This document shows positions 1 through 30,300 of a DNA stretch of 33,043 bases, piece after piece. The DNA comes from Opitutaceae bacterium (lineage in GTDB: Bacteria > Verrucomicrobiota > Verrucomicrobiia > Opitutales > Opitutaceae), in contig PLKS01000272.1 of the NCBI GenBank assembly GCA_003140665.1, positions 1 to 33,043 of the forward strand, given 5' to 3'. The notes under the pieces are model-generated. The model was not told the DNA's origin, did not search any database, and was given only the letters and a program-made list of their open reading frames with translations. The number at the start of each line of letters is the position of its first letter. Within the stretch, counting starts at the first letter, position 1. Made by a program: the position numbers and the translations under genes.

Positions 1-1657
1 CCCCCGCCGTGCCCGCCAGAGTAGTCACGACCCCGGACGGCGTGATCTCGCGGATGTCAAAGTTTCTCTCCTCCGAGACGAATACGTTGCCGCTCCCATC
101 GACCGCGATCCCGGCCGGATAAAAGAACAGCGCGGCGGAGCCCGTCCCGTTGGCGCTGCCTGCGGTCCCCGGGGTGCCAGCGATGGTCGTCACGACCCCG
201 CCCGGCGCGATCTTGCGAATCGCCTGCCCGACCTGGTCGGTGACATACAGGTTGCCGCTTCCGTCCAGGGCGATTCCATAGGGATAGTTGAAATGCGCGG
301 CGGCTCCCGTCCCGTCCACGGTGCCGGCGGCGCCGGGCGTGCCGGCGACGGTGGTGACGACACCGGATGGTGTGATCTTGCGGATCGTGCAATTGGTGTT
401 GTCCACGACATAGAGGTTGCCGCTCGGGTCCAAGGCCATGTCCGTCGGATAATTGAAACGTGCGGAGGAACCCGTCCCGTCGGTGTACCCGGAGCCGGGA
501 GTGCCCGCCAGGGTGGTCACGACGACGCCCGGGGCCATCTTGCGGATCGTGTTGTTGCCGGTGTCCGCAATATAGATGTTGCCGCTGGTATCCGTGCCGA
601 TCCCGAAGGGATAATTGTACTCGGCGGCGGTTCCCGTCCCGTCCACGAAACCCGGGGTCTGCAGAACGCCCGAGATGGTGGTCACCACGCCGCCCGGCGC
701 GATCTTCCGGATCAGGATGTTATCGTAGTCACAGACATACACGTTGCCACTGCCGTCCACCGCCACGCCCTGCGGGGCGTAGAACCGCGCGGCGGCCCCC
801 GTCCCGTCGGTGCTTCCGTTCTTGCCCGCGGTCCCCGCGAGGGTCGTCACCGCGCCCGACGGGGTGATCATGCGGACCGTGCTGTTTCCACCGTCCCCTA
901 TGTAGAGGTTGCCGCTTCCGTCCATCGCTATGGCGGCGGGATAGCGGAAGCGCGCAATAATTCCCTGGCCGTCGATGCTCCCGGGGACCCCCGCTGTGCC
1001 CGCAAAGGTGGTCACGACTCCGGCCGACGTGATCTGGCGGACCGTGTGGTTCACCTGGTCAACGACAAACAGGGTTCCGCTTCCGTTCACCACGACGCCG
1101 ATCGGGTTGTTGAACTGCGCGGCCGCCCCGGTGCCGTCATTGTTGCCGAGGCCCCCCGCGGTCCCCGCGAAGGTGGTCACGACGCCGCCCGGCGTGATCT
1201 TGCGGATCGTGTCGTTGCTCGTGTCCGCGACAAAAACGTTGCCGCTTCCGTCCACGGCGACGCCGAGCGGACTGTTGAACTGCGCGGCCGGTCCCGTCCC
1301 GTCATTGCTTCCGATGACCCCCGGGGTGCCCGCCAGGGTGGTCACGACGCCGGCCGGCGTGACCTTGCGGATCGTGTTGTTCAGCTGGTCCGCGACATAA
1401 ATGTTGCCGCTGGCGTCGGTCGCAACCCCGCCAGGGGCGTAAAATTGCGCGGCGGCCCCCGTCCCGTTCGCTCCGCCGGGCACGTAGGGGGTGCCTGCAA
1501 ACGTGGTGAACGTGTAGGGCGTCGGGTAGACGCTCTGGGCGTGGGCGGCCGGCGCCGGGAGCAGGACCGCGGCGAGGGGCGCAACGAAGCCGACCAGGAA
1601 CCGTGCTGCCGTCTTCAGGGGACGTGAAATGATCATGGGGGTCTGATTGATTGTCAT
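1..1657 (-). CDS. NHL-repeat secreted protein (C-terminal end beyond window start)
   Basis: Reverse-strand frame is open from ATG at 1657 (alternative ATG 1636) to the window edge: MTINQTPMIISRPLKTAARFLVGFVAPLAAVLLPAPAAHAQSVYPTPYTFTTFAGTPYV..., then repeated units of about 55 aa such as GVAVDGSGNVFVADTSNDTIRKITPGGVVTTFAGTAG. Signal peptide-like N-terminus. Not in ORF track because it is truncated. Confidence 0.9.
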   Translation of the reverse strand, partial: MTINQTPMIISRPLKTAARFLVGFVAPLAAVLLPAPAAHAQSVYPTPYTFTTFAGTPYVPGGANGTGAAAQFYAPGGVATDASGNIYVADQLNNTIRKVTPAGVVTTLAGTPGVIGSNDGTGPAAQFNSPLGVAVDGSGNVFVADTSNDTIRKITPGGVVTTFAGTAGGLGNNDGTGAAAQFNNPIGVVVNGSGTLFVVDQVNHTVRQITSAGVVTTFAGTAGVPGSIDGQGIIARFRYPAAIAMDGSGNLYIGDGGNSTVRMITPSGAVTTLAGTAGKNGSTDGTGAAARFYAPQGVAVDGSGNVYVCDYDNILIRKIAPGGVVTTISGVLQTPGFVDGTGTAAEYNYPFGIGTDTSGNIYIADTGNNTIRKMAPGVVVTTLAGTPGSGYTDGTGSSARFNYPTDMALDPSGNLYVVDNTNCTIRKITPSGVVTTVAGTPGAAGTVDGTGAAAHFNYPYGIALDGSGNLYVTDQVGQAIRKIAPGGVVTTIAGTPGTAGSANGTGSAALFFYPAGIAVDGSGNVFVSEERNFDIREITPSGVVTTLAGTAG

Positions 1658-1705: not shown

Positions 1706-3076
1706 TCAGCCGGCGGCGAGTGGCAAAGTGAGGAGAAATGTCGTGCCGCGGGGTCCCGTGGACTCGAGCAGGAGCGTGGCCCCGATCTGCCGCGCAAGCA
1801 GCTGGCTGATCGCGAGGCCGAGGCCCGTGCCCCCCGGGCGGCCGGTGCGGCCCGGCTCGAAGAGATGCGGCCGCAACTCGTCGGAGATGCCGTGCCCCTC
1901 GTCGGAGACCGAGACGGTGGCGGTCTCGCCGCCGTTGCGGAAGGCGACCGCGACGCCGCTGCCCGCGGAGGTCGCGTCGATGGCATTCTGCACGAGGTTG
2001 CTGGTGATCAGGCAGAGCACCCCTCCCCGGTGGCTTCCGAGGCTGTGCTGGAATCCGCCGCTGACGCTCAGGCAAACGCCCTTTTTCACGGCGGCCGCCT
2101 CGTTGCGCTGGCGGACGATGGCGGCGAGCTCGTGCCCGCTGAGCTCAAACGAGGTGTGCGTGTCCGAATCGCCCAGGAGGGCGACCGCATGCTGGATGAT
2201 CGCCTGCATCCGGTCCGTGTACTCGGCGACGGTCTTCCAGTCGGAAGCCGCCTCGCAGCCCGAATCGCGGCCCGCGACCACTCCGCGAAGGCTGGCGACC
2301 GGTCCCTGAAGCCCGTGGATAAGGTGCGAGGTGATCTGGCCCAAGGCCGAGGCCTTTGCGGCAAGCGTCAGCTCAAAGTTCATCTGAACGAGCCGATCAT
2401 TGCGCTCCAGGATGACGCCCTGCGCGCTCCGGAGGCCGAGATAGGCCGCGGCCACGACGACCGCGATGAGCGCGGCCCCGATGCCGAGCGTGGCGGCGGT
2501 CTGGCGGTTGATGCGCTGGTCGATCAGGCTCAGCTCATCGGCAAGCGACCGGGCATAGATGTAGTACTGCGCGAAGCCGACGATTTTCCCGGGCTCGCGG
2601 CCATGGAGCGGAAGCAGCACCTCGAGCACCGGCGTGGCCTGCTGGGAGGGCGTCGCGGCGACGCCCGCGAAGTAGCGGCTGAGCGGAAACTCCGGGAAAA
2701 AGCGGCTTATCGGCTCGAACTTGAGCAGCCGGAGGTAGTCGTCCATGGGCAGCTCGGCAAAAATCAACGAGTCGGGGGCGTACCGCAGGGTGTGGCCCTT
2801 CTCGTCGAAGATGGCCACGCCGAGCATGTTTTCCTGCTGGGCGCTTTCCAGCACGGCGGCGAGCAGGTCGGACGGCCCGGTCGACGCGGCGTAGCGCTGG
2901 GAGAGCTGCCGCTGGGCCACGGGGAGCAGGACCGTGGCGTCGCGGTTGATGATCGTCTGGCGGATTTCCCCGCGAAGCTTGGAGCGGAAAAGCACGACCA
3001 TGGTGGCGAAGATGGCCACGAGCAGGCCCCCGGTGAGGATTGCCAGGATCGGAGGGCGCCAGAATCGCTGATTCAC
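1706..3076 (-). CDS. Membrane sensor histidine kinase
   Basis: 456 aa from a GTG start (MNQRFW...). N-terminal TM, extracytoplasmic region, second TM, H-box-like SHLIHGLQGPVASL, N box LVQNAIDATSAG, G boxes DEGHGISDEL and GGTGLGLAIS, C-terminal GPRGTTFLLTLPL. Confidence 0.92.
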   Translation of the reverse strand: MNQRFWRPPILAILTGGLLVAIFATMVVLFRSKLRGEIRQTIINRDATVLLPVAQRQLSQRYAASTGPSDLLAAVLESAQQENMLGVAIFDEKGHTLRYAPDSLIFAELPMDDYLRLLKFEPISRFFPEFPLSRYFAGVAATPSQQATPVLEVLLPLHGREPGKIVGFAQYYIYARSLADELSLIDQRINRQTAATLGIGAALIAVVVAAAYLGLRSAQGVILERNDRLVQMNFELTLAAKASALGQITSHLIHGLQGPVASLRGVVAGRDSGCEAASDWKTVAEYTDRMQAIIQHAVALLGDSDTHTSFELSGHELAAIVRQRNEAAAVKKGVCLSVSGGFQHSLGSHRGGVLCLITSNLVQNAIDATSAGSGVAVAFRNGGETATVSVSDEGHGISDELRPHLFEPGRTGRPGGTGLGLAISQLLARQIGATLLLESTGPRGTTFLLTLPLAAG

Positions 3077-3122: not shown

Positions 3123-4391
3123 TCAGGGGCGGTGGGTAAACAGGGGCTGTTCTATTTCAATATCCCTCACGCTGTCGTTGAATTGCCGGACAAGGGTCTC
3201 GGCCGACTGGCCGTCCGCCGGCTGGGGGTTTGCGGCGGAGAACTTGGCAAGCTCGCCGCGGATGCTTTCCGCATCCTGGTTGAGAGCCGCTATCTGGGCT
3301 GAATGTTCCATGTTGAAGGCGTCAATGGCCCTGCGCGTCTCGTCGCCCGGCGCCTGCGCCTTGATCTTCGCGGAAAGCTCGTCCTGAAGCGCCGCCCTCT
3401 CCCGCTGGTACTCGGCGATGTGCGCCGCCAGCTTGGGCGGCATCGACGACAGGTCCGGCATGCCGCCGGCAGGCTGGCCCGACAGGAAGCCGGGGGCGGC
3501 GATAAGCGTCGTATCGGAGATCGAATCGTTCCCCCTCGAGTCGACACCGAGGGACTCCGGGGCCCCGACCTCGACGTTCCCCTCGGGAAGCGTCTCGCGG
3601 ATCAGGCGTCCATGGGTCCCCTGGCCGAAATACTGGGATGCATACCTTGAGATCGCCGGGAGCACCTTTTCGAAGTCATTGCCCTGTTCGCGGATGCTGA
3701 AGCGGGTTTCCCATAGCAGCTTGTGTTTCCTCTGCTTCCACAGGACCTGGAAGTCGTAGGCCATCAACACCACGAAATAGCGGTTGTGCTCGATGTCGTC
3801 TACCAGGTCCTCGCGCCTTACGTTGTGGATCAATCCCATGCGGGGCGAATCCACGAGGAGCTCGGGACCGTACCCGAGGATCCCGGCGTTCTCATTGTCT
3901 ATGATGCCACCTTCGAAGCTGACGGGGGCCCAGCTGTCATAGTTGAGGTCCGACCCGTGAGTACCGATTGCCGAGCGGGCGTGGCTGTAGATGCTGAACA
4001 CGAAATTGGCCGAGCCGGGGTCGTTGGTCCCGCTGGTCATCCCCCAGTAGACCATGATCAGCAGCTTCGCCTTGTTGGGGTCCTTGGTCGGCGCGAAGCT
4101 CTGGCCCTTAAGCGGGCCCGCTATGGTCCGCGCGATGTCCATGAAACTCAGCATGTCGATGGTTTCATCGCTGATTGGCGCGCGGTAGTAGCCGCCTTCC
4201 CCGAAGGCGTAGGCCTCGGCCTGGAAGGTGCCGTCCGGGAGCTTTGTCCGGATATAGTCGTCGCTCACCTCCGAGTACACGGCCGTGATCTGGCCAACCG
4301 GTTCCCCGCGGGCGCCTGCTTGGTGGACGAACGGCGCCCCGTAGCCGAGCATGAGGAGCACCGCGGGTTTCAAGGGGCGTGAAAGGCTCAT
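3123..4391 (-). CDS. Secreted paralog 5 of a tandem uncharacterized family, with C-terminal coiled-coil-like extension
   Basis: 422 aa with signal peptide. Shares family motifs TAVYSEVSDDYIRTKLPDGTFQAEAYAFGEGGYY, ISDETIDMLSFMDIARTIAGPL, LLIMVYWGMT, NRYFVVLMAYDFQVLWKQRKHKLLWETRFSI and YASQYFGQ with the four genes upstream. Confidence 0.9.
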   Translation of the reverse strand: MSLSRPLKPAVLLMLGYGAPFVHQAGARGEPVGQITAVYSEVSDDYIRTKLPDGTFQAEAYAFGEGGYYRAPISDETIDMLSFMDIARTIAGPLKGQSFAPTKDPNKAKLLIMVYWGMTSGTNDPGSANFVFSIYSHARSAIGTHGSDLNYDSWAPVSFEGGIIDNENAGILGYGPELLVDSPRMGLIHNVRREDLVDDIEHNRYFVVLMAYDFQVLWKQRKHKLLWETRFSIREQGNDFEKVLPAISRYASQYFGQGTHGRLIRETLPEGNVEVGAPESLGVDSRGNDSISDTTLIAAPGFLSGQPAGGMPDLSSMPPKLAAHIAEYQRERAALQDELSAKIKAQAPGDETRRAIDAFNMEHSAQIAALNQDAESIRGELAKFSAANPQPADGQSAETLVRQFNDSVRDIEIEQPLFTHRP

Positions 4392-4503: not shown

Positions 4504-4523
4504 ATTGCTCACCGCATGCCAAG
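4504..4523 (-). promoter_or_regulatory. Putative sigma-54 (-24/-12) promoter for gene 3123..4391
   Basis: Minus strand CTTGGCATGCGGTGAGCAAT: TTGGCA at -24 and GG-N10-GC spacing. 18/20 identical to the element at 8593..8612. 113 nt from the start codon. Confidence 0.62.
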
Positions 4524-4650
4524 TCTCCAGACGATAAGGTAATCCATTGATCGTAAGTTGATTAAGCGGGTTGGTTCGGGCAGAAACCCAGCGTACCGAA
4601 GCCCTGCTGGGGTGCTGCAGCAAACTTTGGCGCGCCCGGCCGGGTTCAAT

Positions 4651-4666
4651 TGGGTGTAGGTTCCCA
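4651..4666. promoter_or_regulatory. Candidate activator (UAS) site, imperfect inverted repeat
   Basis: TGGGTGTAGGTTCCCA, with TGGG...CCCA ends. 15/16 identical to 8741..8756 and at the same spacing (128 vs 129 bp) to its promoter element. Confidence 0.5.
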
Positions 4667-4708
4667 CGTCGTTGCCACCATCGCCGGTCCCGAAGGCGCA
4701 GCGGCGCG

Positions 4709-5638
4709 TCATTTTGAAGGTGCCCCGACGACGCCGAGCGAAGTCGGCTCGCCCACCTCGACCTTTCCCTCACGGATCCTCATCCGCGACAACCCATGGC
4801 TGTCCTGGCCGAAGTACTGCGACGCATTCTGGGCCATCACGAGCAGGGCCTTGTCGAATTGATTGCGGCGCTCATCGATGCTGAATCGCGTCTCCCAAAG
4901 CAATTTGTGCTTCTTCTGTTTCCACAGGAGCTGGAAATCATAGGCCATGAGCACCACGAAATACCGGTTCCCCTCGATTTCCGCTATCAACTCATCCCGG
5001 TGGTACTTCATCGGGGTCCTTCGGGCCTCGAGTCCGAAATCGGTCCCGATCACCCCTTCGGAATCGTATCCCAGCATGGCGGCGTTCTTGAAATCGATGA
5101 GGTCGCGTTGGCGGTTCTCCATGTTGAGCTGCACCGTCGCGGCCGAAACCTCCGACATCACGTCATCCTGGATCTGGGGCGGCTCGGGGTTCTGCTTGTT
5201 CATGACTCGGCTGAGATCGGCCTGGGCCATGCTAAAGTTGCTGTACGCGACCGAGTCTGAGGTCGGGCCGGGAACCACGGTTGTCCCCCAATAGAGCATG
5301 ATGAGCAGCCTCGTCTTTTCCGGGTCCCTCGCCGGAAGATATTTCTGGGCCGCCAGCGGGGCCGCGATGACCCGCGCCACGTCCATGAAGCTGAGCTTGT
5401 CGATCGTCGCGTCGCTGATTTCACCCGCCCATCTGCCCCCTTCCCCAAAGCTGTAATACTCCGGCGGGAATGAGCCGTCGGGCAGCTTGGTGCGGACGTA
5501 GTCGCTGCTGACCTTCGAGGACACGGCGGTTATGCCCTCAACGCCTTCGCCCGCCCGGGCGACGGGTAGCGCGCCCAGCAGGATGCCGCAGCCGGCAAGG
5601 AACAAGTCTCTCAGCCGGCGCGCACGTGATGATCTCAT
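4709..5638 (-). CDS. Secreted paralog 4 of tandem uncharacterized family
   Basis: ATG at 5636-5638 (MRSSRARRLRDLFLAGCGILLGALPVARAGEGVEGITAV...), 309 aa. The longer ORF to 5884 is an N-terminal overextension. Overlaps the stop of the upstream gene by 4 nt (ATGA). Confidence 0.9.
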   Translation of the reverse strand: MRSSRARRLRDLFLAGCGILLGALPVARAGEGVEGITAVSSKVSSDYVRTKLPDGSFPPEYYSFGEGGRWAGEISDATIDKLSFMDVARVIAAPLAAQKYLPARDPEKTRLLIMLYWGTTVVPGPTSDSVAYSNFSMAQADLSRVMNKQNPEPPQIQDDVMSEVSAATVQLNMENRQRDLIDFKNAAMLGYDSEGVIGTDFGLEARRTPMKYHRDELIAEIEGNRYFVVLMAYDFQLLWKQKKHKLLWETRFSIDERRNQFDKALLVMAQNASQYFGQDSHGLSRMRIREGKVEVGEPTSLGVVGAPSK

Positions 5639-6561
5639 TTGCTTGGGTTCTCCGTCGTTGGGGCAGCGGCCTTCCCGGGGCCGAACAGGTATTCGACGAG
5701 CGTCGGCTTGCCCACGTCGACCCGCCCCTCGGGCACCCGGATCCTCAGGAGTCCCTTGCTGGGTTGCCCGAAATACCTGGAGGCGTACTCCGCCATCACC
5801 GGCAGCGCCCGGTCGAACTGGTTGCGGCGCTCGTTGATGCTGAAGCGGGTTTCCCAAAGCAGCTTGTGCTTCTTCTGCTTCCACATCAGCTGGAAATCAT
5901 ATGCCATCAGCACGACGAAATACCGGTTTTCCTCGATCTCCTCGATCAGCTCCTGCCTCTTCGCCCCGAACGCGGTTCCACGGATGTTGTTCCCGAAATC
6001 GGTGCCGATCATCCCTTCGGCGTCGTATCCCAGCATGCAGGCGTTCTGGAAATCGAGCCGGTCACGCATCTCGTTGTACATCGCCATGATCGTCAAAGCG
6101 GACGACAGCTCCGCCATCGATGCGTCGCTCCCGCTGATGTTGGCCTGCGCCGCGCTCAGTTCGTTGTAGGCGATCGAGTCGGAAGACGGCCCGGGAACCG
6201 CGGTCGTTCCCCAGTAAAGCATGATGATGAGCTTTGTTCGGCTTGGGTCCGTTGCCGGAAGATAATTCTGCTCCGACAGCGGTGCGGCGACGACCCGCGC
6301 CACGTCCTCGAAGCGGAGCTGGTCGATCGTGGCGTCGCTTATCTCGCCACCCCAATGTCCCCCTTTTCCAAAGGCATAGTATTCCGGCTGGAAGGAGCCG
6401 CCGGGCAGCTTGGTGCGGACGTAGTCGCTGCTCACCCTCGAGACAACGGCGGTGACGCCGTCGACGCCATCCGCAGCGCGGGCGGGCGATAGGGCGGCCA
6501 GCAGCGCGGCGCCGCTGGCAAGGATCAAGGCCTTCCTTCGGAACGCGCGCGATGCCTTCAC
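5635..6561 (-). CDS. Secreted paralog 3 of tandem uncharacterized family
   Basis: GTG at 6559-6561 (MKASRAFRRKALILASGAALLAALSPARAADGVDGVTAV...), 308 aa. Start overlaps the stop of the next upstream gene (GTGA). Confidence 0.9.
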   Translation of the reverse strand: MKASRAFRRKALILASGAALLAALSPARAADGVDGVTAVVSRVSSDYVRTKLPGGSFQPEYYAFGKGGHWGGEISDATIDQLRFEDVARVVAAPLSEQNYLPATDPSRTKLIIMLYWGTTAVPGPSSDSIAYNELSAAQANISGSDASMAELSSALTIMAMYNEMRDRLDFQNACMLGYDAEGMIGTDFGNNIRGTAFGAKRQELIEEIEENRYFVVLMAYDFQLMWKQKKHKLLWETRFSINERRNQFDRALPVMAEYASRYFGQPSKGLLRIRVPEGRVDVGKPTLVEYLFGPGKAAAPTTENPSK

Positions 6562-7541
6562 TTGCTTCCGGTTCCCTTGGCCGGGGCTGCTGAATTCTCG
6601 GTTCCGAACGGGAGCTCGATGACCGTCGGCTCGCCGATGTCGACGCGTCCCTCCGGGAACCGGGTTCTCACCAGTCCATTGGTCGGCTGCCCGAAATACC
6701 TCGAGGCGTATTGCGCCATCGCCGGCAGCGCCTTGTCGAATGCGTTGTGCCTTTCGCTTATGCTGAAACGCGTTTCCCAGAGCAGCCTGTGCTTCTTGTT
6801 CTTCCACATGAGCTGGAAATCGTATGCCATCAGCACCACGAAATACCGGTTCTCCCGGATCTCTGCATATAAGTCGTCCCGGTCCATGCTGAGCGCCGTT
6901 CCCCTGACGTAGTTTCCCCTCTCCGTTCCTATCAGCCCCGGGGAGTCGTAGCCAAGCATCAGGGCATTGGCAAAATCGGTCCGGTCGTTCTGGCGGTTCT
7001 CCATGTTGAGCATCACCGTGGCCGCTGACATTTGATCGATCGCGGCATCGGCAGCCGCGCCGGCGACAACGATTTTCTTGCGTGGGTCGCTGGTGGACGG
7101 AACCAGATACTTGTTGAGGTTGTCTTGCGCCACCTGGAACTGATCGATCGCCACCGAGTCGGAGGTTGGCGCGGGAACCGCGGTGGTCCCCCAGTAGACC
7201 ATTATGAGGAGCCTTGTCTTGTCCGGGTCGGTTGCCGGGAGGTATTTCTGATGAGCAAGTGGCGCGGCTATGACCCGCGCCACGTCGATGAAATGGAGCT
7301 TGTCGATCGTGGCGTCGCTAATTTCGCCAGCCCACCTTCCTCCCTCCCCAAAGGAGTAAGATTCAGCCTGGAACGAGCCGTCGGGCAGCCTGGTGCGAAC
7401 GTAGCCGTCGCTCACCTTCGAGGCCACGGCCGTGATGCCCTCGACGTCTTCGGTCGCGAGGGCGGGAGACGCCGAGCCCAGCAGCACGCCATTGCCGGCG
7501 AGGAGAAGGGCTTTCAGCTGAAACGCACGCGATGCCTTCAT
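6558..7541 (-). CDS. Secreted paralog 2 of tandem uncharacterized family
   Basis: 327 aa, signal peptide MKASRAFQLKALLLAGNGVLLGSASPALA; same conserved N- and C-terminal blocks; ATGA overlap with the upstream paralog. Confidence 0.92.
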   Translation of the reverse strand: MKASRAFQLKALLLAGNGVLLGSASPALATEDVEGITAVASKVSDGYVRTRLPDGSFQAESYSFGEGGRWAGEISDATIDKLHFIDVARVIAAPLAHQKYLPATDPDKTRLLIMVYWGTTAVPAPTSDSVAIDQFQVAQDNLNKYLVPSTSDPRKKIVVAGAAADAAIDQMSAATVMLNMENRQNDRTDFANALMLGYDSPGLIGTERGNYVRGTALSMDRDDLYAEIRENRYFVVLMAYDFQLMWKNKKHRLLWETRFSISERHNAFDKALPAMAQYASRYFGQPTNGLVRTRFPEGRVDIGEPTVIELPFGTENSAAPAKGTGSK

Positions 7542-8482
7542 TTGCCTCCGGCCTCCTTCCCCGGCACTGGCGGCGTGTCGGCCCCGAACAGGAATTCGAC
7601 GAGGGTGGGCTCACCGATGTCGACGCGTCCCTCCGGGAACCGCGTTCTTACCAGCCCATGGGTGGCCTGTCCGAAGTACCGGGACGCGTACTGCGCCATC
7701 GCCGGCAGGGCCTTGTCGAATTGGTTGTGCAGCTCATTGATGCTGAATCGCGTCTCCCAAAGAAGCTTGTGCTTCTTCTGCTTCCACAGGAGCTGGAAGT
7801 CATAGGCCATGATCACGACGAAGTACCGGTTCCCCTCGATCTCGGCGACCTCGTCGTTCGTGCGCCACCCGAGCGCCGTGTGCGAGAGGTACTTCCCATG
7901 GTCCGTCTCGACCAGCCCGTCGTAGTCGTAGCCGATCATCTTCGCGTTCCGGAAATTGAGGAGGTCCCTCTGCCGGTTCGCTATCGCAAGCACGTGGAGC
8001 CCGGCCGTGAGGACGGCGTTGGCTTCATCGGGCTGCCCCTCATCCATGAGCAGCCGGTATTCCTCGAGGGCCTGGTAATATTCCTGGTACAGGGGCGACA
8101 ACTGCGGCGGGTCGGGAACCGCCGTCGTCCCCCAGTAGACCATGATCAGGAGCTTCGTATTGTTTGGGTCCCTCGCGGGCATGTATTTCTGGCCGGCGAG
8201 CGGCTCCGCGATGACCCGGGCCACGTCCATGAAATGAAGCTTGTCGATCGTTGCGTCGCTTATCTGGCCGCCCCAGGTCCCCCCTTCCCCGAACGAATAG
8301 TACTCCGGCTGGAACGAGCCGTCGGGAAGCTTGGTCCGGAAGTAGTCGTCGCTCACCTTTGACGCCACGGCGGTCACGCCCTCGATGCCCTCGATCGCGC
8401 GGACGGGCGACGGGACGCCGAGCACGATGGCGCCGCACGCCAGCAACCCGGCTTTCCTCCGAGGCGTGGGGGATGCCTTCAT
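7538..8482 (-). CDS. Secreted paralog 1 of tandem uncharacterized family
   Basis: 314 aa, signal peptide MKASPTPRRKAGLLACGAIVLGVPSPVRA; conserved blocks as in the other four. First gene of the coupled cluster. Confidence 0.92.
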   Translation of the reverse strand: MKASPTPRRKAGLLACGAIVLGVPSPVRAIEGIEGVTAVASKVSDDYFRTKLPDGSFQPEYYSFGEGGTWGGQISDATIDKLHFMDVARVIAEPLAGQKYMPARDPNNTKLLIMVYWGTTAVPDPPQLSPLYQEYYQALEEYRLLMDEGQPDEANAVLTAGLHVLAIANRQRDLLNFRNAKMIGYDYDGLVETDHGKYLSHTALGWRTNDEVAEIEGNRYFVVIMAYDFQLLWKQKKHKLLWETRFSINELHNQFDKALPAMAQYASRYFGQATHGLVRTRFPEGRVDIGEPTLVEFLFGADTPPVPGKEAGGK

Positions 8483-8592
8483 GGCGCCTTGAGACTGGGA
8501 TGGGGGGTCGACATCGATTCACGGGCTTTCCCGGTTGGGCGCGGGTCCATCTGCAGGGACACACGCGGCGGGAATTCCTTCGTCGCGCACCT

Positions 8593-8612
8593 ATTGCTCG
8601 CCGCGTGCCAAG
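8593..8612 (-). promoter_or_regulatory. Putative sigma-54 (-24/-12) promoter for the coupled paralog cluster
   Basis: Minus strand CTTGGCACGCGGCGAGCAAT: exact TTGGCACG -24 box and GG-N10-GC spacing to a GAGCA -12 box (TTGCA expected). 111 nt from the start codon at 8482. Adjacent to a sigma-54 activator gene. Confidence 0.68.
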
Positions 8613-8740
8613 CCCTCCGGTCCTCCGGCCAATGCACTGATGCCACGTTGGTTGGGTGAACCAAATCGTCAAACCCCGCCATTGCCGGGCGTTGCTTTGG
8701 GTGGCTGCCGCAAATTTCTGGCGTCGGCTGCCGCCCCGTT

Positions 8741-8756
8741 TGGGCGTAGGTTCCCA
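8741..8756. promoter_or_regulatory. Candidate activator (UAS) site, imperfect inverted repeat
   Basis: TGGGCGTAGGTTCCCA, near-identical to 4651..4666, 129 bp upstream of the promoter-like element. Confidence 0.5.
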
Positions 8757-8775
8757 AGTCTTCCCACGCGAGAAG

Positions 8776-10191
8776 CTAGGGGGCCGTTTTCCCGCCGGGG
8801 AGGCGGTAGCGGACAAAATCGCGGGTCACGCCCAGGCGGCGCGCCGCCGCGGAAATGTTGTTGCCCGTCTCGCGCAGCGCCTCGGCAATCAGCTCGTCAA
8901 CCGTGGCATCGAGCGAGAAACCGGACTCGGGCATGCGCCATGCCGGGTTGCGCCAGCCGCCCGAGAGCGGGGTGGCCGGGGCGCCCAGCGCGCCGAAGTC
9001 GAAGGCCGTGCTTCCGCCGAAGATGACGGCCCGCTCGATCTCGTGGGCGAGCTCGCGCACGTTGCCCCGCCAGGGCTGCGCGAGCAGGCGGGCCTCGCCC
9101 TCAGGCGCTATCGTCAGCCCCTTCAGCCTGTGCCGCGCGGCGATCTTCGCGAGCAGGTGGCGGGCGAGCGGCAGGATGTCGGTGCCGCGGTCGCGCAACG
9201 GCGGAAGCGTGATCCGCAGGAGGTTCAGGCGATGGAAAAGGTCCTCGCGAAACACGCCCTGCCGCACGAGGTCATCGAGGGGGCGGTTGCTGGCGGCGAC
9301 CACTCGGACATCCACCGAGATCTCGCGCGTGCCGCCGAGCCTGCGGATGTTGCCCTCCTCGACGGCGGTCAGGACCTTGGCCTGCGTCGCCAGGGCCAGC
9401 GAGCCCACCTCATCGAGGAACAGCGTGCCGCCGTCGGCGGCCTCAAAGAGGCCGATCCTGGCCCGCTTCGCGTCGGTGAACGCCCCGCGCTCGTGCCCGA
9501 AGAGCTCCGCCTCGGCGAGGGCGTCGGGCAGCGCCGCGCAGTTCAGGGTGACGAACGGTTCAGCCTGCCTGGGCCCCTGGCGATGCAGCCAGCGGGCGAG
9601 AACGCTCTTTCCCGTCCCGGTTTCGCCCTCGATGAGGACGGGCGGCAGCCGGTGCTCGAGGCGGCGCTCGGCCGCGACAATGGTGTCGAGCTGCGAGCGC
9701 ACACCCCGGAGGCTCTCTCCGAAAAACACCTGGTCGGCGGCCGCGCCGGTCTCCGCGGCGCGATGCTCGGCGCGGCGAGCGGCGATGCGCTGGCTGCGGC
9801 ACCGGGCGAAGGCGAGCGGCAGTTCCTCGGGTTCGAACGGCTTGGACAGGTAGTCGCCCGCGCCCAGGCGGATGGCCTCGACGGCCTGCTTGATGCCGCC
9901 GAAGGCCGTCATCACGACGACGCCGGTGTTCTCCGAGAACGCGCCCTCGCGCAGCAGGCCCAGCACCTCGCCGTCAGGCAGGTGCAGGTCCACCAGCGCG
10001 AATTCGAACCGAAGGTCGCGCAGCTGCCGCCGGGCGTCCTCGAGGCGGCCCGCCTCGGTCACCTCGGCGCCCAGTTGCCGCAGATACGCGGCGAGGCGCT
10101 TGCGGAACGGCGGATCGTCCTCGAGCAGGAGAATCTCGCAGCCCGGCGATAGCGCCGTTCCATCGAACGATGAACTTGGGGTGACTGACAT
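8776..10191 (-). CDS. NtrC-family sigma-54-dependent response regulator
   Basis: 471 aa. Receiver domain (LLLEDDPPFRKRL, ALVDLHLPDGEVL, SKPF), AAA+ domain (Walker A GETGTGKS, GHERGAFTDA, GGTLFLDEVG, FREDLFHRLN), Fis-type HTH (ALRETGNNISAAARRLGVTRDFVRYRL). Confidence 0.96.
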   Translation of the reverse strand: MSVTPSSSFDGTALSPGCEILLLEDDPPFRKRLAAYLRQLGAEVTEAGRLEDARRQLRDLRFEFALVDLHLPDGEVLGLLREGAFSENTGVVVMTAFGGIKQAVEAIRLGAGDYLSKPFEPEELPLAFARCRSQRIAARRAEHRAAETGAAADQVFFGESLRGVRSQLDTIVAAERRLEHRLPPVLIEGETGTGKSVLARWLHRQGPRQAEPFVTLNCAALPDALAEAELFGHERGAFTDAKRARIGLFEAADGGTLFLDEVGSLALATQAKVLTAVEEGNIRRLGGTREISVDVRVVAASNRPLDDLVRQGVFREDLFHRLNLLRITLPPLRDRGTDILPLARHLLAKIAARHRLKGLTIAPEGEARLLAQPWRGNVRELAHEIERAVIFGGSTAFDFGALGAPATPLSGGWRNPAWRMPESGFSLDATVDELIAEALRETGNNISAAARRLGVTRDFVRYRLPGGKTAP

Positions 10192-18248: not shown

Positions 18249-20366
18249 CTATTGCCTCCTTGACAAGGCGTCGCGCAGGTTTCTCTGGGCGCCGGCGTTG
18301 CCCGGATCAATCTCCAGGGCCTTCCTGATATGCTCGATGGCCTCGTTCGCCCGGCCCATTTGCAGCAGGCAATACCCGAGGTTGTTGTGGGCCGCCGAGG
18401 AATCCGGGTCGAGCTCGACCGCCCTGCGGTAATGGGCGAACGCTGCCTCCCTGCGGCCCGTCTGGAGGAACGCGTTGCCGAGGTTTGTCTCGGCGATCGC
18501 GAACCTCGGGTTGATTTCCAGGGCCCGCTCGAAATGGGATATGGCCTCCTCCACGCGGCCCTTTTGAATCAGCGCAATGCCAAGGTTGGCGTGGGTTTCG
18601 GCCTCGTCGGGGTCGTTCTCAAGGGCGCTGTTGAAGCGGTCGATGGCGTCATCCACCCTGCCCGATTGCAGCAGCGCGTCGCCGAGGTTTGCGCTCGCGC
18701 TTGCGAAGTCCGGCTTGAGCACGAGGGCCCTTTGGTAGTGGGAAACGGCCTCATCCAGGTGGCCGGCCTGCAGCAGCGCGTCGCCGAGGTTCGTATGGAC
18801 GAGGATGTTGTTCGGCTCGATCTCCAGCGCCCTTCCATACTGCACGATGGCCTCGTCCACCCGGCCCCTCCTGCGCAGCGCGTCGCCAAGGCTGCCGTAG
18901 GCCGCGGCATTGCCGGGCTCCAACTTCAGGGCCATTTGGATGTCCGCCATGGCCTCGTCGACGCGCCCCTTCTCAAGCAACCCGGCGGCAAGATTGTTGT
19001 AGGCCATCCAGCACGCGGGGTTCCTAGCGATCGTCGCCCGCCAGAGGATTTCCGAATCGGCGTAGATCGCGCATTGCCGCCAGCTCAGCACGCCCAGCAG
19101 GGCGGCGATGCCAAAGGCCGCGATCCAAGCGGCCACGCGGGCGGGCGGCGCGAGGAGCCCTGCGCCCAGCGCGAGCGCGGCCGCCGCCGCCGCCAGCATG
19201 ATCGCGGCCGCAAGGTATTGGAAATGGTCGGCGACAAAGGAGTAGACAAAGGGGAAGACATTCACGAACCCCAGGGCTGGAAAGAGCGTGCCCGCAAACA
19301 GGAGGGCGGCGGCCAGCGGCCCGCGATGGCGGCCTCGAAATGCCCACAACGCAGCCAGGACGCCTGCGGCTGCGGCAGGGAACAGGTATTGCCGAAGGTC
19401 GCCGGAGTCGATCGTCCACCGCGGATAGATGAAGGTCAGGCCAACGGGCCAAACGATCTTGCCGAGATAGAACCAAAGGGCCCGCCCCGCCACAAGGAAG
19501 CGGCCCGCAAGTCCGAGGTCATATGCGGCTCCGCTCGCGCCGACAAATGTCCGCTCCATCCACGCCGTCATGGCGCCGGCCCCGGCCCCCAGCGCGAACA
19601 GCGGCACCAGCGGCAGGACGTCGCCCCTCCACGAAAGCCGCCCCCGCTTCCACCAAAAGACGACGAGGAGCGCCGCCGGGAGGGTTGCGGTCACGCTCTT
19701 GGTCAGGACGGCCAGCACGAAGAGTCCCGTGCCCAGGGCATACCACCCGAGCCCGCGCACACGGTCATATCGCAGATACGCAAGTCCAGCGGACAGGTAA
19801 AAGACAGCGGACAGCGTGTTCTTCTGCTCCGAGATCCAAGCGACCGACTCCACGCAGACCGGATGGAGGGCGAAGACCGCAGCGGCGAGGAACGCGCCGG
19901 GGACCGCAAGGCGCCGCAGGATGCGAAAGAGCAGGAGCGTCGTCCCCGCATGCAACGCGACATTGAGCAGGTGATACCAGAACGGCGCATCGCCCCAGAT
20001 GCGGTGCTCCAGCCAGAAGGCGCTCCCCGCCACCGGGTAGTACTGCTGCGTCGCGCCGGGCTCGAACCAGATCCGCCAAAGGCCGTGGAGCGAGCGCAAG
20101 CCGGAGCGCGTGACGTGGGCGTCATCATCCCAGATGAAACCGGCGCGAAGCACGGGCTGGTACGCGATCAGCGTCGCGATCGCCAGCGCAAGGCAGGCCA
20201 ACCCATCGCCCTGCCACCACGATTGCCCCGGCCTCGAAAGGCCAGGGGCCGACCGGCCGGCGTCGCCGGAAGGCCCTGTCGCGGCCTTCGCCCGATGGAA
20301 CTTTTGCTCTGGCCTTCGGCTCATCCGGCTCTCGTTGACCACGCCCCAGCCCATTTTTCGACACAA
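18249..20366 (-). CDS. TPR-repeat multispanning membrane protein (TMTC/glycosyltransferase-like)
   Basis: 705 aa. N-terminal multi-TM region with WDDDAHVT and HPVCVESVAWISEQKNTLSAVFYLSAGLAYLRYD, then about 7 C-terminal 34-aa TPR units (ALLQAGHLDEAVSHYQRALVLKPDFASASANLGD...). Confidence 0.9.
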   Translation of the reverse strand: MCRKMGWGVVNESRMSRRPEQKFHRAKAATGPSGDAGRSAPGLSRPGQSWWQGDGLACLALAIATLIAYQPVLRAGFIWDDDAHVTRSGLRSLHGLWRIWFEPGATQQYYPVAGSAFWLEHRIWGDAPFWYHLLNVALHAGTTLLLFRILRRLAVPGAFLAAAVFALHPVCVESVAWISEQKNTLSAVFYLSAGLAYLRYDRVRGLGWYALGTGLFVLAVLTKSVTATLPAALLVVFWWKRGRLSWRGDVLPLVPLFALGAGAGAMTAWMERTFVGASGAAYDLGLAGRFLVAGRALWFYLGKIVWPVGLTFIYPRWTIDSGDLRQYLFPAAAAGVLAALWAFRGRHRGPLAAALLFAGTLFPALGFVNVFPFVYSFVADHFQYLAAAIMLAAAAAALALGAGLLAPPARVAAWIAAFGIAALLGVLSWRQCAIYADSEILWRATIARNPACWMAYNNLAAGLLEKGRVDEAMADIQMALKLEPGNAAAYGSLGDALRRRGRVDEAIVQYGRALEIEPNNILVHTNLGDALLQAGHLDEAVSHYQRALVLKPDFASASANLGDALLQSGRVDDAIDRFNSALENDPDEAETHANLGIALIQKGRVEEAISHFERALEINPRFAIAETNLGNAFLQTGRREAAFAHYRRAVELDPDSSAAHNNLGYCLLQMGRANEAIEHIRKALEIDPGNAGAQRNLRDALSRRQ

Positions 20367-20479
20367 TTATGTCCAAATTCCGCCGGATCCCGCCTTGGGC
20401 CCGAGGCCGCCCTGCCGGCGAAACCGGCCCTCCGAACGCAAGCCATGCGCCGCCTTAGGCCGGTCGCCGCGGGCCCCTC

Positions 20480-21142
20480 CTACTTGCTCGGCGTGATGCC
20501 GGGCACCGTGATCTTCGTCGAGTCGCCGGACGTCGGCGCAGGCGCGGCCCCTGGGGACCCGGCGGCGGGACGGTCTGCGTTGATCGCCACCATCACCTCG
20601 TCGGTGATGTCGAGCCTCGGGTCAGAATAGAGGATATTCGACACGCCGGCCATGGTCGGCCCCGACTTGTCGAGCAGGAACGTCGCGCCCTTTTTCTTTG
20701 CGATGTCGACCGCGATCTTGGAGATCTCCTCGACCATAAGGGTCTTGAAGGTCTGGGTGCGCTTCCGGAACGAGCCTTGCGTGCTTTGCGCGAATGAGTC
20801 CAGCTCGCTGCGCTTCTGCTGGATCTGGTCGTACATTTTCTGCGCGTCAGCCTGGGCCTTGGCCTTTGCATCGGCGGTCGCCGCCGGGTTCTTGGCCTGC
20901 TCGTTGAGCGCCTTGAACTGCTCCACCAGCGCGTTGCCCTCGCTCTGGATCTGGGCCACCTGCTCCTTGGCCTTGGCCGCGTCCGCCTGGAGCTTTGCGT
21001 TCTGCTCCTGGGTCTTCCAGTGGCTGTCGAATAGCTTGGAGAGATCCACGACGAGGATCGTTGGGGCGGTTTCTGCACGCGTGGCCAGCGTCGTCAAGGC
21101 GATTGCAGCTACGGCCACTAGGGACTGAATGGATTTTTTCAT
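20480..21142 (-). CDS. OmpH/Skp family periplasmic chaperone-like protein
   Basis: 220 aa. Signal peptide, ILVVDLSKLFDSHWKTQEQNAKLQADAAKAKEQ..., coiled coil, VDIAKKKGATFLLDKSGPTMAGVSNILYSDPRLDITDEVM. Confidence 0.88.
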   Translation of the reverse strand: MKKSIQSLVAVAAIALTTLATRAETAPTILVVDLSKLFDSHWKTQEQNAKLQADAAKAKEQVAQIQSEGNALVEQFKALNEQAKNPAATADAKAKAQADAQKMYDQIQQKRSELDSFAQSTQGSFRKRTQTFKTLMVEEISKIAVDIAKKKGATFLLDKSGPTMAGVSNILYSDPRLDITDEVMVAINADRPAAGSPGAAPAPTSGDSTKITVPGITPSK

Positions 21143-24116: not shown

Positions 24117-24247
24117 CCCCGCAACGCTACCACAACCGGGGGATTCGTCAAAGGGCCGATTGCGCCGGCTCCGCGGCCCCCGAGCCGCGGGAGATCTCGG
24201 CGCGGGATTGCATCGGAGGTCGAAACTGACACCATGGTGCTCCCTCA

Positions 24248-25576
24248 ATGCCAAATGCCGCGATCGAGCTGCTGATCCTCGGACTCCTCATCGTCGCGAA
24301 CGGGATCCTCACCGCGGCGGAGACCGCGCTCGTCTCGGCGCGCCAGGCGAAGCTCAGGCGCATGGCCGACGCCGGCGGCGAGGGCGCCAGGGCTGCGCTG
24401 GCGATCGCGGAGCACCCGGGCCGCTTCCTCGCGCTCGTCCAGTTCTGGCTCACGCTGAGCACCGTCATCGCGGCCGTCGTCGTTGTGGCATCGGCGGCCG
24501 ACTGGTTCTCGTCGCTATTCTCGCGGTGGCCCGCCGCCGCCCCTTGGGCGGAGACGATCGGGATGGCCGCCGCGACGCTGGCGCTCAGCGCGGTCATGCT
24601 CGTCTTCGGCGAGCTTCTTCCAAAGCGGATCGCCCTCTCGAACCCGGAGCGCGCGGCGGCCGTCCTCGGGCCCGCGATGCGCACCGTCATGCGGGTCATC
24701 GGCCCGTTCTCCTCGGCGCTCGGCGCGATGAGCGACAGGCTCGCGCGCTCGATGGGGTTCAACCCGAGGCCGATCGCCGACACGGTGGGCGACGAGGATG
24801 TGCGCGCGCTCGTCGAGCGGGGACTCCACGCGGGCGTGTTCAAGCGGGCGAAGAAGGAGATGGTCGAGGGGGTGCTTTCGCTCGACAACCTGCCGATCAC
24901 CGCGATCATGACGCCGCGCTCGAAGATCGTGTTCCTCAACATCGACGACAACGAGGAGACGAACTGGCGCAAGATCGTCACCAGCGGGCATTCGTACTTC
25001 CCCGTGTATCAGAAAAACCGCGACCAGGTGGTCGGGATGGTCTCGGTGAAGGCGCTCTGGGCGCACTCGGCGATCGGGCTGCCCACGACCCTCAAGAACC
25101 TGCTCGTGCCCCCGCTCATCGCCCCGGAGTCGATGACCGCGACCCAGCTGCTCGAGCAGTTCAAGAAGACGGGCCGGCACACCGCCGTGATATCGGACGA
25201 GTTCGGCGCGATCCAGGGTCTCGTGACGCTGATCGACGTATTCGAGGCGATCGTCGGCGACCTTCCCGAGCCCGGGCAGCGCAACCAGGACGGGGCGAAG
25301 CGGCGGGAGGACGGCACGTGGGTCGTCGATGCCACGCTCCCGATCGCCGAGTTCAAGTCGGTCCTCGGGATCTCGGCGCCCCTTCCCGACCAGGCCGAGG
25401 CGGAGTACCGGACCGCCGGGGGGTTCGTGGTCACGCAGTTCGGCCGCATCCCGGCCGTCGGCGACCATTTCGAGTGGGGAGGCTGGAGGTTCGAGGTGGC
25501 CGAGATGGACCGGCGCCGCGTCGACAAGGTGCTGGTCGCGAGGACGGCGCCGGATCCCGCGAAGGCGACCGCATAG
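24248..25576 (+). CDS. CNNM/CorC-family (hemolysin-like) transporter with CBS pair
   Basis: 442 aa. LLIVANGILTAAETALVSARQAKLRRMADAG; FGELLPKRIALSNPE; LPITAIMTPRSKIVFLN; C-terminal CorC_HlyC segment. Confidence 0.95.
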   Translation: MPNAAIELLILGLLIVANGILTAAETALVSARQAKLRRMADAGGEGARAALAIAEHPGRFLALVQFWLTLSTVIAAVVVVASAADWFSSLFSRWPAAAPWAETIGMAAATLALSAVMLVFGELLPKRIALSNPERAAAVLGPAMRTVMRVIGPFSSALGAMSDRLARSMGFNPRPIADTVGDEDVRALVERGLHAGVFKRAKKEMVEGVLSLDNLPITAIMTPRSKIVFLNIDDNEETNWRKIVTSGHSYFPVYQKNRDQVVGMVSVKALWAHSAIGLPTTLKNLLVPPLIAPESMTATQLLEQFKKTGRHTAVISDEFGAIQGLVTLIDVFEAIVGDLPEPGQRNQDGAKRREDGTWVVDATLPIAEFKSVLGISAPLPDQAEAEYRTAGGFVVTQFGRIPAVGDHFEWGGWRFEVAEMDRRRVDKVLVARTAPDPAKATA

Positions 25577-27167: not shown

Positions 27168-27354
27168 GGGGGCGGGAAACCTGATCCCTAAGTGCCGGAT
27201 TTGCAAGCTGCCAAGGGAATCAGGAAATCAGCGGGTCCAGGGCCCCTTTTCCGGAACTTTCTGGGGTCCGCGGACGACTAAAACCGGCTCATAGGATGCG
27301 GCCGCGACCCGGCATTGCATTTGTCCGCTTTCTCTGTAAGCAGCTTTCTTCTTC

Positions 27355-30300
27355 ATGCCATTCCCTTCGTCCCCAAGAACCCGCCTGCGCGGCATTAGAT
27401 TTGCGGGTTTCCTGCTGCTGGCGGCCACGGGCGCGGCTCTCAACGCCCAGAACCCCAACCCCGCCAACGATGGCTTCGATCCCAACGCGAACGGCATCGT
27501 CAACACTCTGGTGGTGCAGCCGGATGGCAAGATCTTGATGGGAGGGTACTTCACCCAACTTCAACCCTTCGGCGAACCGGTCTCGGGCCATGCCTACGTC
27601 GCGCGCCTGAACCACGACGGGTCGGCGGACACGAGCTTCACTCCAAACGCCAACGGCGTCGTCCGCACCCTGGTGCTCCAGGCAAACGGCCAGATCCTCA
27701 TCGGCGGCAATTTCACGACGATCCAGCCCTCGGGGGGCGGGACGGCGGCCGCCCGCATGTACGCGGCCCGGCTCAACGCCGACGGAAGCCTCGATCCGGT
27801 CTTCAACCCGAACACCAACGGCACGGTCTACGCGATCGCGGTCCAGCCGAACGGCCAGGTCGTGATCGGGGGGTCGTTCACGACCGTCCAGGCCGGCGGC
27901 GCGTCGGCCGCGACGACCCGCAACCACATCGCGAGGCTCAACGCGGACGGATCGCTCGACACGAGCTTCGATCCCAACGCCGACCGGACGGTGCTTTCGC
28001 TCGCGGTCGAGGTCAACGGGCAGGTCGTCGTGGGCGGCGGATTCACCAAGCTTCAACCCAACGGGGCGTCCTCCGCGACGACGCGCAACTGCATCGCGCG
28101 GCTCAATTCCGACGGCTCGCTGGACACCAGCTTTGATCCCGAGGCGAGCGGCAGCGTGAACGCGATCCTGGTGCTCCCGAACGGGCAGATCGTGCTGGGC
28201 GGGGAGTTCGTCAGCTTTCAGCCGAACGGCGCGACGGCCCCGTTCCAGACCGACTTTCTCGCCAGGCTCAACGCCGACGGCACGGTCGACGGGACCTACA
28301 TCGTCAATCCGCTGGCCAGCGTCGAGGCCCTCGCCCTCCAGACCGACGGTAAGCTCCTCATCGGAGGCACCTTCACCTCGGTCTACGCCCAGAACAGCCC
28401 CGCCCCCGAGATCCTCAACTATGCCGCGCGGATAAACACCGACGGGTCGGTCGACGGGTCCTTTGACCCGAATCCCGACCAGGCGGTCAACGCAATCGCG
28501 GTTCAGCAGGATGGGAGCGTAATTCTCGGCGGGTTTTTCGAGGCGATCCAGACAAACGAGGTCGGGGCTTCCATCACCCGCAATTTCATCGCGCGCGTGA
28601 GCGGGGAGGGCTCGCTCGACGCAACGATGGCGCCGGATGGCGCCGGGACCATTTTCGCCGCCGTCCCGCTTTCCAACGGGCAGTTCCTCGTCGGGGGAAA
28701 TTTCCAGAGCATCGCGGGGGTCACACGCGCCTATCTCGCCCGCCTGAATGCCGACGGCTCGCTGGACCCGACGTTCGCCCCGACGCTGAACGGCAGCGTG
28801 CTCTCCATCTCGGTGATGACGAACAACCAGATGATCATCGGGGGCGACTTCACGACTATCGATGGGATTCCCCGCGGCTATGTCGCGCGCCTCAACAGCG
28901 ACGGCACGGTCGACGGCCCGTTCAATCCCAATGCAAACGGCGAGGTGACGCTGGTCGTGCAGCAGTCGAACGGCCAGATCCTCATCAGCGGCTTCTTCTC
29001 GGTGCTCACACCCAACGGGGTGACCACCGGGATCGCGATAGGCGGATTTGCACGGCTCAATACCGACGGCTCGATGGACCTCACCTTCAATCCGAACCCC
29101 ACGGGGGGCCGGGTGCTCGCGATCGACATCCAATCGGACGGCAAGATGCTGGTGGCCGGCGAATTCACCCAGATCGGGGGGGTGGTGCGGGGCTACGTGG
29201 CGCGGCTGCTCTCGACGGGGGCGATCGACACGGTGGACTTCGACCCCGAGGCAAACCTGCCGGTGTACGCGATGGCGGTCCAGTCGGACGGAAAGATAGT
29301 GATCGGCGGCCTGTTCACGTCGGTCATCCCCCAGACGGCCACGCCGGGGAACATCAACAATAACACCACGACGACAAACCAGTACGGAGAAACCGTGACG
29401 CTTCCGCCCCCCGGGGACAGCGCGACGACGCCCATCTACATCAACAAGCTGGCTCGCCTCAACACGGACGGCACGCTCGACACGACGTTCTTCCCGGACC
29501 CAAGCGCCACCGTCCAGGCGATCGCCATCCAGTCGGACGGGTCGATCGTGGTGGGTGGCTCGATGACCTCCTTCGCACAGAATGGCAACCCGACCGGGAC
29601 GATCCGAAACTATATCGGCCGGGTCGAGACCGACGGCACCCTTGACCCGGGGTTCGACCCCGACGCGAACGCCCAGGTCAATGTCATAGACCTGCTTTCA
29701 AACGGGCTCATCCTGATCGGCGGGAGCTTCACGACGCTGCAGCCGAACGGGGCCGCGGCGCCGGTGCAGGCGAACCACGTCGCGATCCTCAATGTGGACG
29801 GTTCCATCTCCCCCTCGTTCTCCGAGGGCGCGAACGCGAGCGCGAACGGCCAGCAGGTCAACGCGTCGGCGCTGCTCCCCGGCGGCCAGATGCTGATCGG
29901 CGGCTCATTCAGCCCGATCGGGGGCGCCCCGGCTTCCAACCTGTGCGTGTTCAATCCCGACGGCACGCCGGACACCGCGTACAACTCGGTCTTTGACGGC
30001 CCGGTGAACGCGATCTCGGTCTCGCCGAAGGGCGCCTCCACCCCCACGTCCACGAGCTACGCCGTATGGCTCGAGTCGACCGGGCTGGTCCGGTACCTGT
30101 ACTCGGCGGCGTCCAACGGGGTGGTATCCGCGGTCCTGCAGCAGTCGGATGGAAAGGTCCTCGTGGGGGGGCTCTTCAGCAGTTTCTCGGGCGCCGGTGG
30201 ATTCCAGAACCTGGTGCGCCTCAATACCGACGGGACGCTGGACACCACGTTCAACCCGGCGCCAAACGGTCAGGTCGCCGCCCTGGCGTTGCAGGCGAAC

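Follow-up and report, generated by a model that had tools for sequence, protein, structure and literature searches.

We propose, at a probability of about 0.93 and on comparative sequence grounds, that an array of exported-protein genes in this Opitutaceae bacterium is controlled by the two-component system encoded next to it, acting through sigma-54 promoters. The window, which is the whole stretch of DNA that was analyzed, comprises positions 1 to 33,043 of contig PLKS01000272.1 and forms part of a 3.85-Mb assembly (G000). Within it, five paralogous genes (p5 to p1) lie on the minus strand between the genes for an NtrC-family response regulator (RR, 8776-10191, minus strand) and a sensor histidine kinase (1706-3076, minus strand). 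The original prediction assigned the array a single sigma-54 promoter at its head, next to an NtrC-family activator gene. The comparative anatomy of this and related loci lends strong support to sigma-54 control by the neighboring NtrC-type protein, and the promoter itself (W1) stands, yet a second promoter (W2), two upstream elements (A and B) and the kinase had been overlooked.

Promoter W1 reads CTTGGCACGCGGCGAGCAAT on the minus strand at 8593-8612, a sigma-54-like 20-mer at the place first proposed. Its -24 element is exactly TTGGCACG, the GG at -24 and the GC at -12 are separated by exactly 10 nt, and the -12 box is GAGCA, giving a site of the form TTGGCACG-N4-GAGCA with a predicted transcription start near 8585. 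The site is positioned 111 nt ahead of the ATG at 8480-8482; its description as immediately downstream of the NtrC-family gene is roughly right, as it lies ~165 nt past the stop codon of the RR gene. Taken singly, such motifs occur at chance frequency. In the window, TGGCACGN6GC is found once against 0.61 expected (47 of 100 shuffles contain at least one), while the 17-mer sigma-54 consensus with up to three mismatches is found 8 times against 8.18 expected. Genome-wide counts resemble those of the reversed-pattern controls: YTGGCAYN5GAGCA occurs 4 times in G000 versus 4 times for the reversed pattern, and the canonical YTGGCAYGN5TGCW occurs 4 times versus 3. Because these counts are at chance in both the window and the genome, they were excluded as support. 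They would also suit an explanation in which the W1 20-mer is a chance resemblance and transcription of the array either starts at a different promoter, weak ones being hard to spot in a GC-rich genome, or reads through from the RR gene; a sigma-70-like promoter was sought in the W1 and W2 regions and found in neither.

W1 becomes significant only in combination with a partner site at 4504-4523 and the upstream elements that the two share. The loose scan (17-mer, up to three mismatches) gave TTGGCATGCGGTGAGCA at 4506-4522 on the minus strand, 115 nt ahead of p1, and the full site, W2, reads CTTGGCATGCGGTGAGCAAT (4504-4523, minus strand). W1 and W2 are the sole matches to TTGGCAYGCGGYGAGCA, with at most one mismatch, in the whole assembly, and alignment of their upstream regions reveals GACKTGGGAACCTACRCCCAA in both. 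Based on this second site and the common upstream sequence, the array appears to have two promoters, W1 for p5-p4-p3-p2 and W2 for p1 and then the kinase. Specifically, p5 (7538-8482), whose N terminus is signal-peptide-like, is the first gene after W1, and it is followed by p4 (6558-7541), p3 (5635-6561, with a GTG start) and p2 (4709-5638), which are translationally coupled to it, as each start overlaps the preceding stop (ATGA, GTGA and ATGA, respectively). The first gene after W2 is p1 (3123-4391), and the kinase gene, located 46 nt past p1, is presumably on the same transcript.

Each promoter is preceded by two candidate RR sites on the same strand. At W1, element A (dyad TTGGGAACCTACGCCCAA, 8740-8757) is 146 nt and element B (TTTGCGGCAGCCACCCAA, 8697-8714) is 103 nt upstream of the core, a spacing of 43 nt, whereas at W2 the corresponding distances are 145 nt for A (GTGGGAACCTACACCCAA, 4650-4667) and 102 nt for B (TTTGCTGCAGCACCCCAG, 4607-4624). 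We aligned nine of the twelve core matches from G000 and a second genome of the genus (G008); the three omitted matches (C15:24238, C155 and C348) were scored afterwards and all lack A and B. In the nine aligned sites, the core is preceded by A (TTGGGAACCTACACCCAA-like) at 145-146 nt and by B (TTTGCNGCANNCACCCA-like) at 102-103 nt, and the two elements are 43 nt apart in eight sites and 42 nt apart in one. Mean pairwise identity is 0.50 for A, 0.49 for B and 0.46 for a zone containing IHF-like bases, as compared to 0.32, 0.28 and 0.30 in the gaps and 0.27 downstream. The core itself has identities of 0.89 and 1.0, and its GG, GC and 10-nt spacing are invariant, but these values are inflated by the way in which the sites were chosen, namely by the core pattern. 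Since 43 nt corresponds to about four helical turns, both elements would face the same side of the DNA. IHF binds a WATCARN4TTR-like consensus, and IHF-like stretches are present between the activator sites and the core of W1 (CATCAGTGCATTG, 8630-8642, minus strand) and in the upstream region of W2 (GATCAATGGATTA, 4540-4552, minus strand). The score for this consensus is 7.6 versus 6.1 in shuffled sequences (0 of 2000 reach it), but the register varies. The genome contains two HU/IHF-family genes. The stretches are suggestive, and an IHF/HU bend between the activator sites and the core is possible. The predicted sites A and B are at the distance of 100 bp or more that PMC4641369 describes for activator sites, whose loop is aided by IHF or HU.

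Because the A/B consensus was derived from the nine aligned sites, only two sites constitute independent tests of it, G011:C179 and G126:C44. A pattern combining the dyad, spacer and site matched 7 times in 252 family genomes versus 0 times for reversed controls, and six of the seven matches are located at an RR orthologue or a regulon gene. Five of these are at regulon genes, and the sixth, G126:C44, is from another genus and falls between an RR that is 68-70% identical and an outer-membrane-barrel-like gene, with the RR, the A element and the site retained in the same geometry. The seventh (G112:C10) has no RR or paralogue nearby and is probably a chance match. Among 13 genomes of the genus there are 25 core matches; when A and B were scored at their set spacing from the core, 10 matches had both and 15 did not. 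The 10 complete sites (3 in G000, 6 in G008 and 1 in G011) come from exactly those members of the genus in which the best match to the RR reaches 74% or more (100, 82 and 74%, respectively). The G011:C179 site, which is outside the consensus set, has both elements (0 of 1000 shuffles) and precedes a divergent member of the array protein family (profile E 6e-23). The presence of A and B at a fixed distance at W1, at W2 and in trans, their co-occurrence with the closest RR, and the conserved position of the site at 19 of 23 RR loci largely refute a chance origin of W1, which we regard as very improbable.

The same distribution bears on which activator is involved. A genuine sigma-54 site could be served by a different enhancer-binding protein in place of the adjacent RR, as G000 encodes further sigma-54 activators (11 Pfam matches) and a second RR/kinase pair on contig C78, whose RR is one candidate. 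However, within the 13 genus genomes the A+B sites are confined to those with a close RR, and G002, G003, G006 and G009, which have only the C78-type RR, contain no A+B site, making this substitution unlikely. The second pair (G000:C78:15805-20276, locus L179) is 67% and 53% identical to the RR and kinase of the window, respectively, and surrounds the frame of a 573-aa helical protein.

Seven of the 10 complete sites precede array-family genes (p5, p1, C102, C40c of G008, C178, C338 and G011:C179), and the other three precede the RR gene itself (C40b), a 131-aa frame with no Pfam match (C122) and a gene whose product has NHL repeats (C40a). The sequence comparison supports a regulon that reaches further loci in trans, but not one that includes every member of the paralogue family. 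Control of the whole family by W1-type sites was rejected: at least 73 family upstream regions exist, and among the 73 examined, which come from the family matches listed, only 5 contain the core (3 of 15 in G000, 2 of 5 in G008 and 0 of 53 elsewhere), leaving 12 of the 15 listed regions of G000 without a site. The C40b site places the same promoter layout ahead of the RR gene in G008 (L190, 2274-2290), so this gene may be autoregulated there; the core pattern has no match upstream of the window's own RR gene. A further core match in the window, TTGGCATTGAGGGAGCA at 24238-24254 on the minus strand, lacks A and B and was rejected from the regulon as probably due to chance; the frame that begins 138 nt after it encodes 171 aa, and its N terminus resembles a signal peptide.

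Across related loci, the site recurs at the equivalent place. A sigma-54-like site, defined by a score of at least 14 of 17 (a threshold chosen after the scores were known), is found in the 300 nt that follow the RR stop codon at 19 of 23 loci whose RR is ~50% identical or more, versus 14 of 69 distant RR loci. In this comparison L197 is nearly a copy of L202, L195 was removed as a duplicate of L185, and the control loci L242, L259 and L270 are too short. The four RR loci without a site are L179 (the second RR of G000), L186 (where the kinase directly follows), L191 and L192. Over the first 200 nt, 13 of the 23 RR loci contain a GGG-N8-CCC dyad versus 6 of 69, with some of the 13 positioned off the A or B distance. 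Separately, L191 (G061:C156), L188 and L189, from family- and order-level relatives, have pairs of dyads just past the RR stop codon that are highly regular, such as TTGGGGAATAATCCCCAA and TTGGGAAATAATTCCCAG.

An unusual feature of W1 is its -12 box, in which GA replaces the TT of the TTGCW consensus at -15/-14. We did not take TTGCW as defining, as PMC12316311, a sigma-54 survey that covers Opitutia, includes E. coli promoters that have been validated despite a departure from the consensus in this box, and the box of orthologous sites is NTGCA. Distant Opitutaceae have textbook sites after the RR gene (TTGGCACG-N5-TGCA), and textbook cores are found at the equivalent place in orthologous loci (TTGGCACGACCGATGCA, TTGGCACGGGCGATGCA and TTGGCATGAGGGCTGCA). 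In the window and in L190, L275, L184 and L185, position -15 is G and position -14 is occupied by A or C but in no case by T, and this pattern in the window and its closest relatives suggests that the deviant -12 box is characteristic of the clade.

The RR contains a receiver, a sigma-54 AAA+ domain and a Fis-type HTH (PF00072, PF00158 and PF02954, all above cut-off), with the Walker A sequence GETGTGKS, and its GAFTGA-type loop reads as the variant GAFTDA, which is present in 21 of 23 orthologous sequences, the other two having GSFTDA. A genome without rpoN would have spoken against the original prediction; G000 has the gene, whose C terminus (PF04552, E 5.5e-30) is preserved in a 92-aa fragment, with a readable RpoN box, where contig C130 ends and cuts the gene short. 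Conceivably, the elements are real and a different sigma factor reads the core, or the core is one more regulator site, the third, with the GAFTDA RR working independently of sigma-54. GAGCA differs from TTGCW and is invariant at the A+B sites, and in PMC10714721 the GAFTDA protein VfmH recovered no sigma-54 in a pull-down, the cause of which its authors leave open. Nevertheless, the core is textbook at the equivalent place in orthologous loci, the GG-N10-GC arrangement is retained, rpoN is present, and PMC4641369 lists GAFTDA and GAYTDA among the variants thought to stay active in D. vulgaris; we consider this the least probable of the alternatives. The points that count against sigma-54 control are accordingly the GAGCA box without the consensus TT, a single site that is not above chance, an rpoN represented only by a fragment, the GAFTDA loop, the RR loci that lack a site, and the lack of one in most listed family members of G000.

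The genes past the sites differ between lineages, and the first of them have signal-peptide-like starts, as judged by eye. They are barrel-like in L184 and L275 (both under the Pfam cut-off), BamE/SHOCT lipoprotein-like in L185, and encode small helical proteins in L187 and L196-L202. When the C-terminal 137 residues of p1 (residues 286-422, 3126-3536) were used to query the reading frames of the searched loci, the best matches were to the coiled-coil-like, kinase-adjacent gene between the RR and kinase in L179-L185, L195 (on the same contig as L185) and L275 (E 9e-23 to 3e-4, a score that may be partly compositional). In the converse search, a profile built from the small proteins next to the kinase missed the p1 tail. 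The tail matches give p1 the appearance of a fusion between an array protein and the helical protein found beside the kinase. Tentatively, and with somewhat more doubt than confidence, these observations can be read together as one inherited sensing module of the Opitutaceae, in which the RR gene is followed by a sigma-54 promoter, one or more exported genes, a coiled-coil-like protein that is also exported, and the kinase. Lineages would have exchanged the contents of its output slot: outer-membrane barrels in some, a BamE-like lipoprotein or small helical proteins in others and, here, the PelC/TraT-like array. The coiled-coil-like protein would be a sensed or feedback partner that has become, in this genome, the tail of p1, and the clade with the closest RR would have acquired a -12 box of its own, GAGCA or GCGCA, in which -15 is G and -14 is not T.

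The array proteins likely have an envelope or surface role. The predicted structure of p5 (mean pLDDT 86) combines an alpha-beta core resembling that of PelC, DUF4136 and TraT with a helical insertion. It resembles PelC with a Z of 10.5 (3.2 A over 124 residues) and TraT with a Foldseek E of 1.2e-5 but a TM of only 0.25-0.35. The array product differs from these families in its 6-12% identity and its long inserted helices (130-183), and a Pfam search with p5 returned 0 families up to E 0.5. DUF4136 was matched by 1 of 49 array-family members, at E 0.07, and neither Pfam nor NCBIfam assigns the array proteins a function; as the resemblance is one of fold only, we do not file them as members. 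Elsewhere in the window, the long open frames with internal repeats at 293-1627 (+), 18330-20630 (+) and 27289-29133 (-) look like mirror frames of opposite-strand tandem-repeat genes, and local AT skew is strong around 17-20 kb (-0.25 to +0.38).

Two-component sigma-54 promoters of the NtrC/ZraR/AtoC type, such as glnAp2, are well known, and the system described here shares their receiver-AAA+-Fis activator, their -24/-12 core and, as predicted here, two dyad-like sites more than 100 bp upstream, and it may have an IHF bend as well. It differs in that its targets are exported proteins, its -12 box is GAGCA and its A and B elements are 43 nt apart. Moreover, the RR scores far under the NCBIfam equivalog cut-offs for AtoC (306.6 vs 714) and NtrC (300 vs 558.6). 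The NCBIfam models of PEP-CTERM PrsK/PrsR match the kinase with 70 bits and the RR with 284 bits, far under the cut-offs of 300 and 502.6. In the proposed scheme, the kinase would phosphorylate the RR, and phosphorylated RR oligomers would bind A and B, placed by conservation ~145 and ~102 nt upstream. The DNA would then loop, perhaps bent by IHF or HU, and sigma-54 polymerase at W1 would be opened by the AAA+ domain to yield a single p5-p4-p3-p2 transcript. W2, as an equal promoter, would drive p1 and probably the kinase, the latter giving positive feedback, and the RR would act in trans on other loci encoding exported proteins of the array family.

This enhancer-dependent mechanism is itself of a known kind; what appears to be new is the regulon, the module with a swappable output and the clade-specific -12 box. 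A literature search for the phylum yielded broad sigma-54 surveys or unrelated systems and found no account of this regulon, which does not prove that none exists. The system offers a concrete, testable set of regulator, promoters and targets for the Verrucomicrobiota, and its invariant non-consensus GAGCA would serve as a natural test of the role of positions -15/-14 at sigma-54 promoters. It would also provide a handle on when the members of a large, unnamed family of exported proteins are produced.
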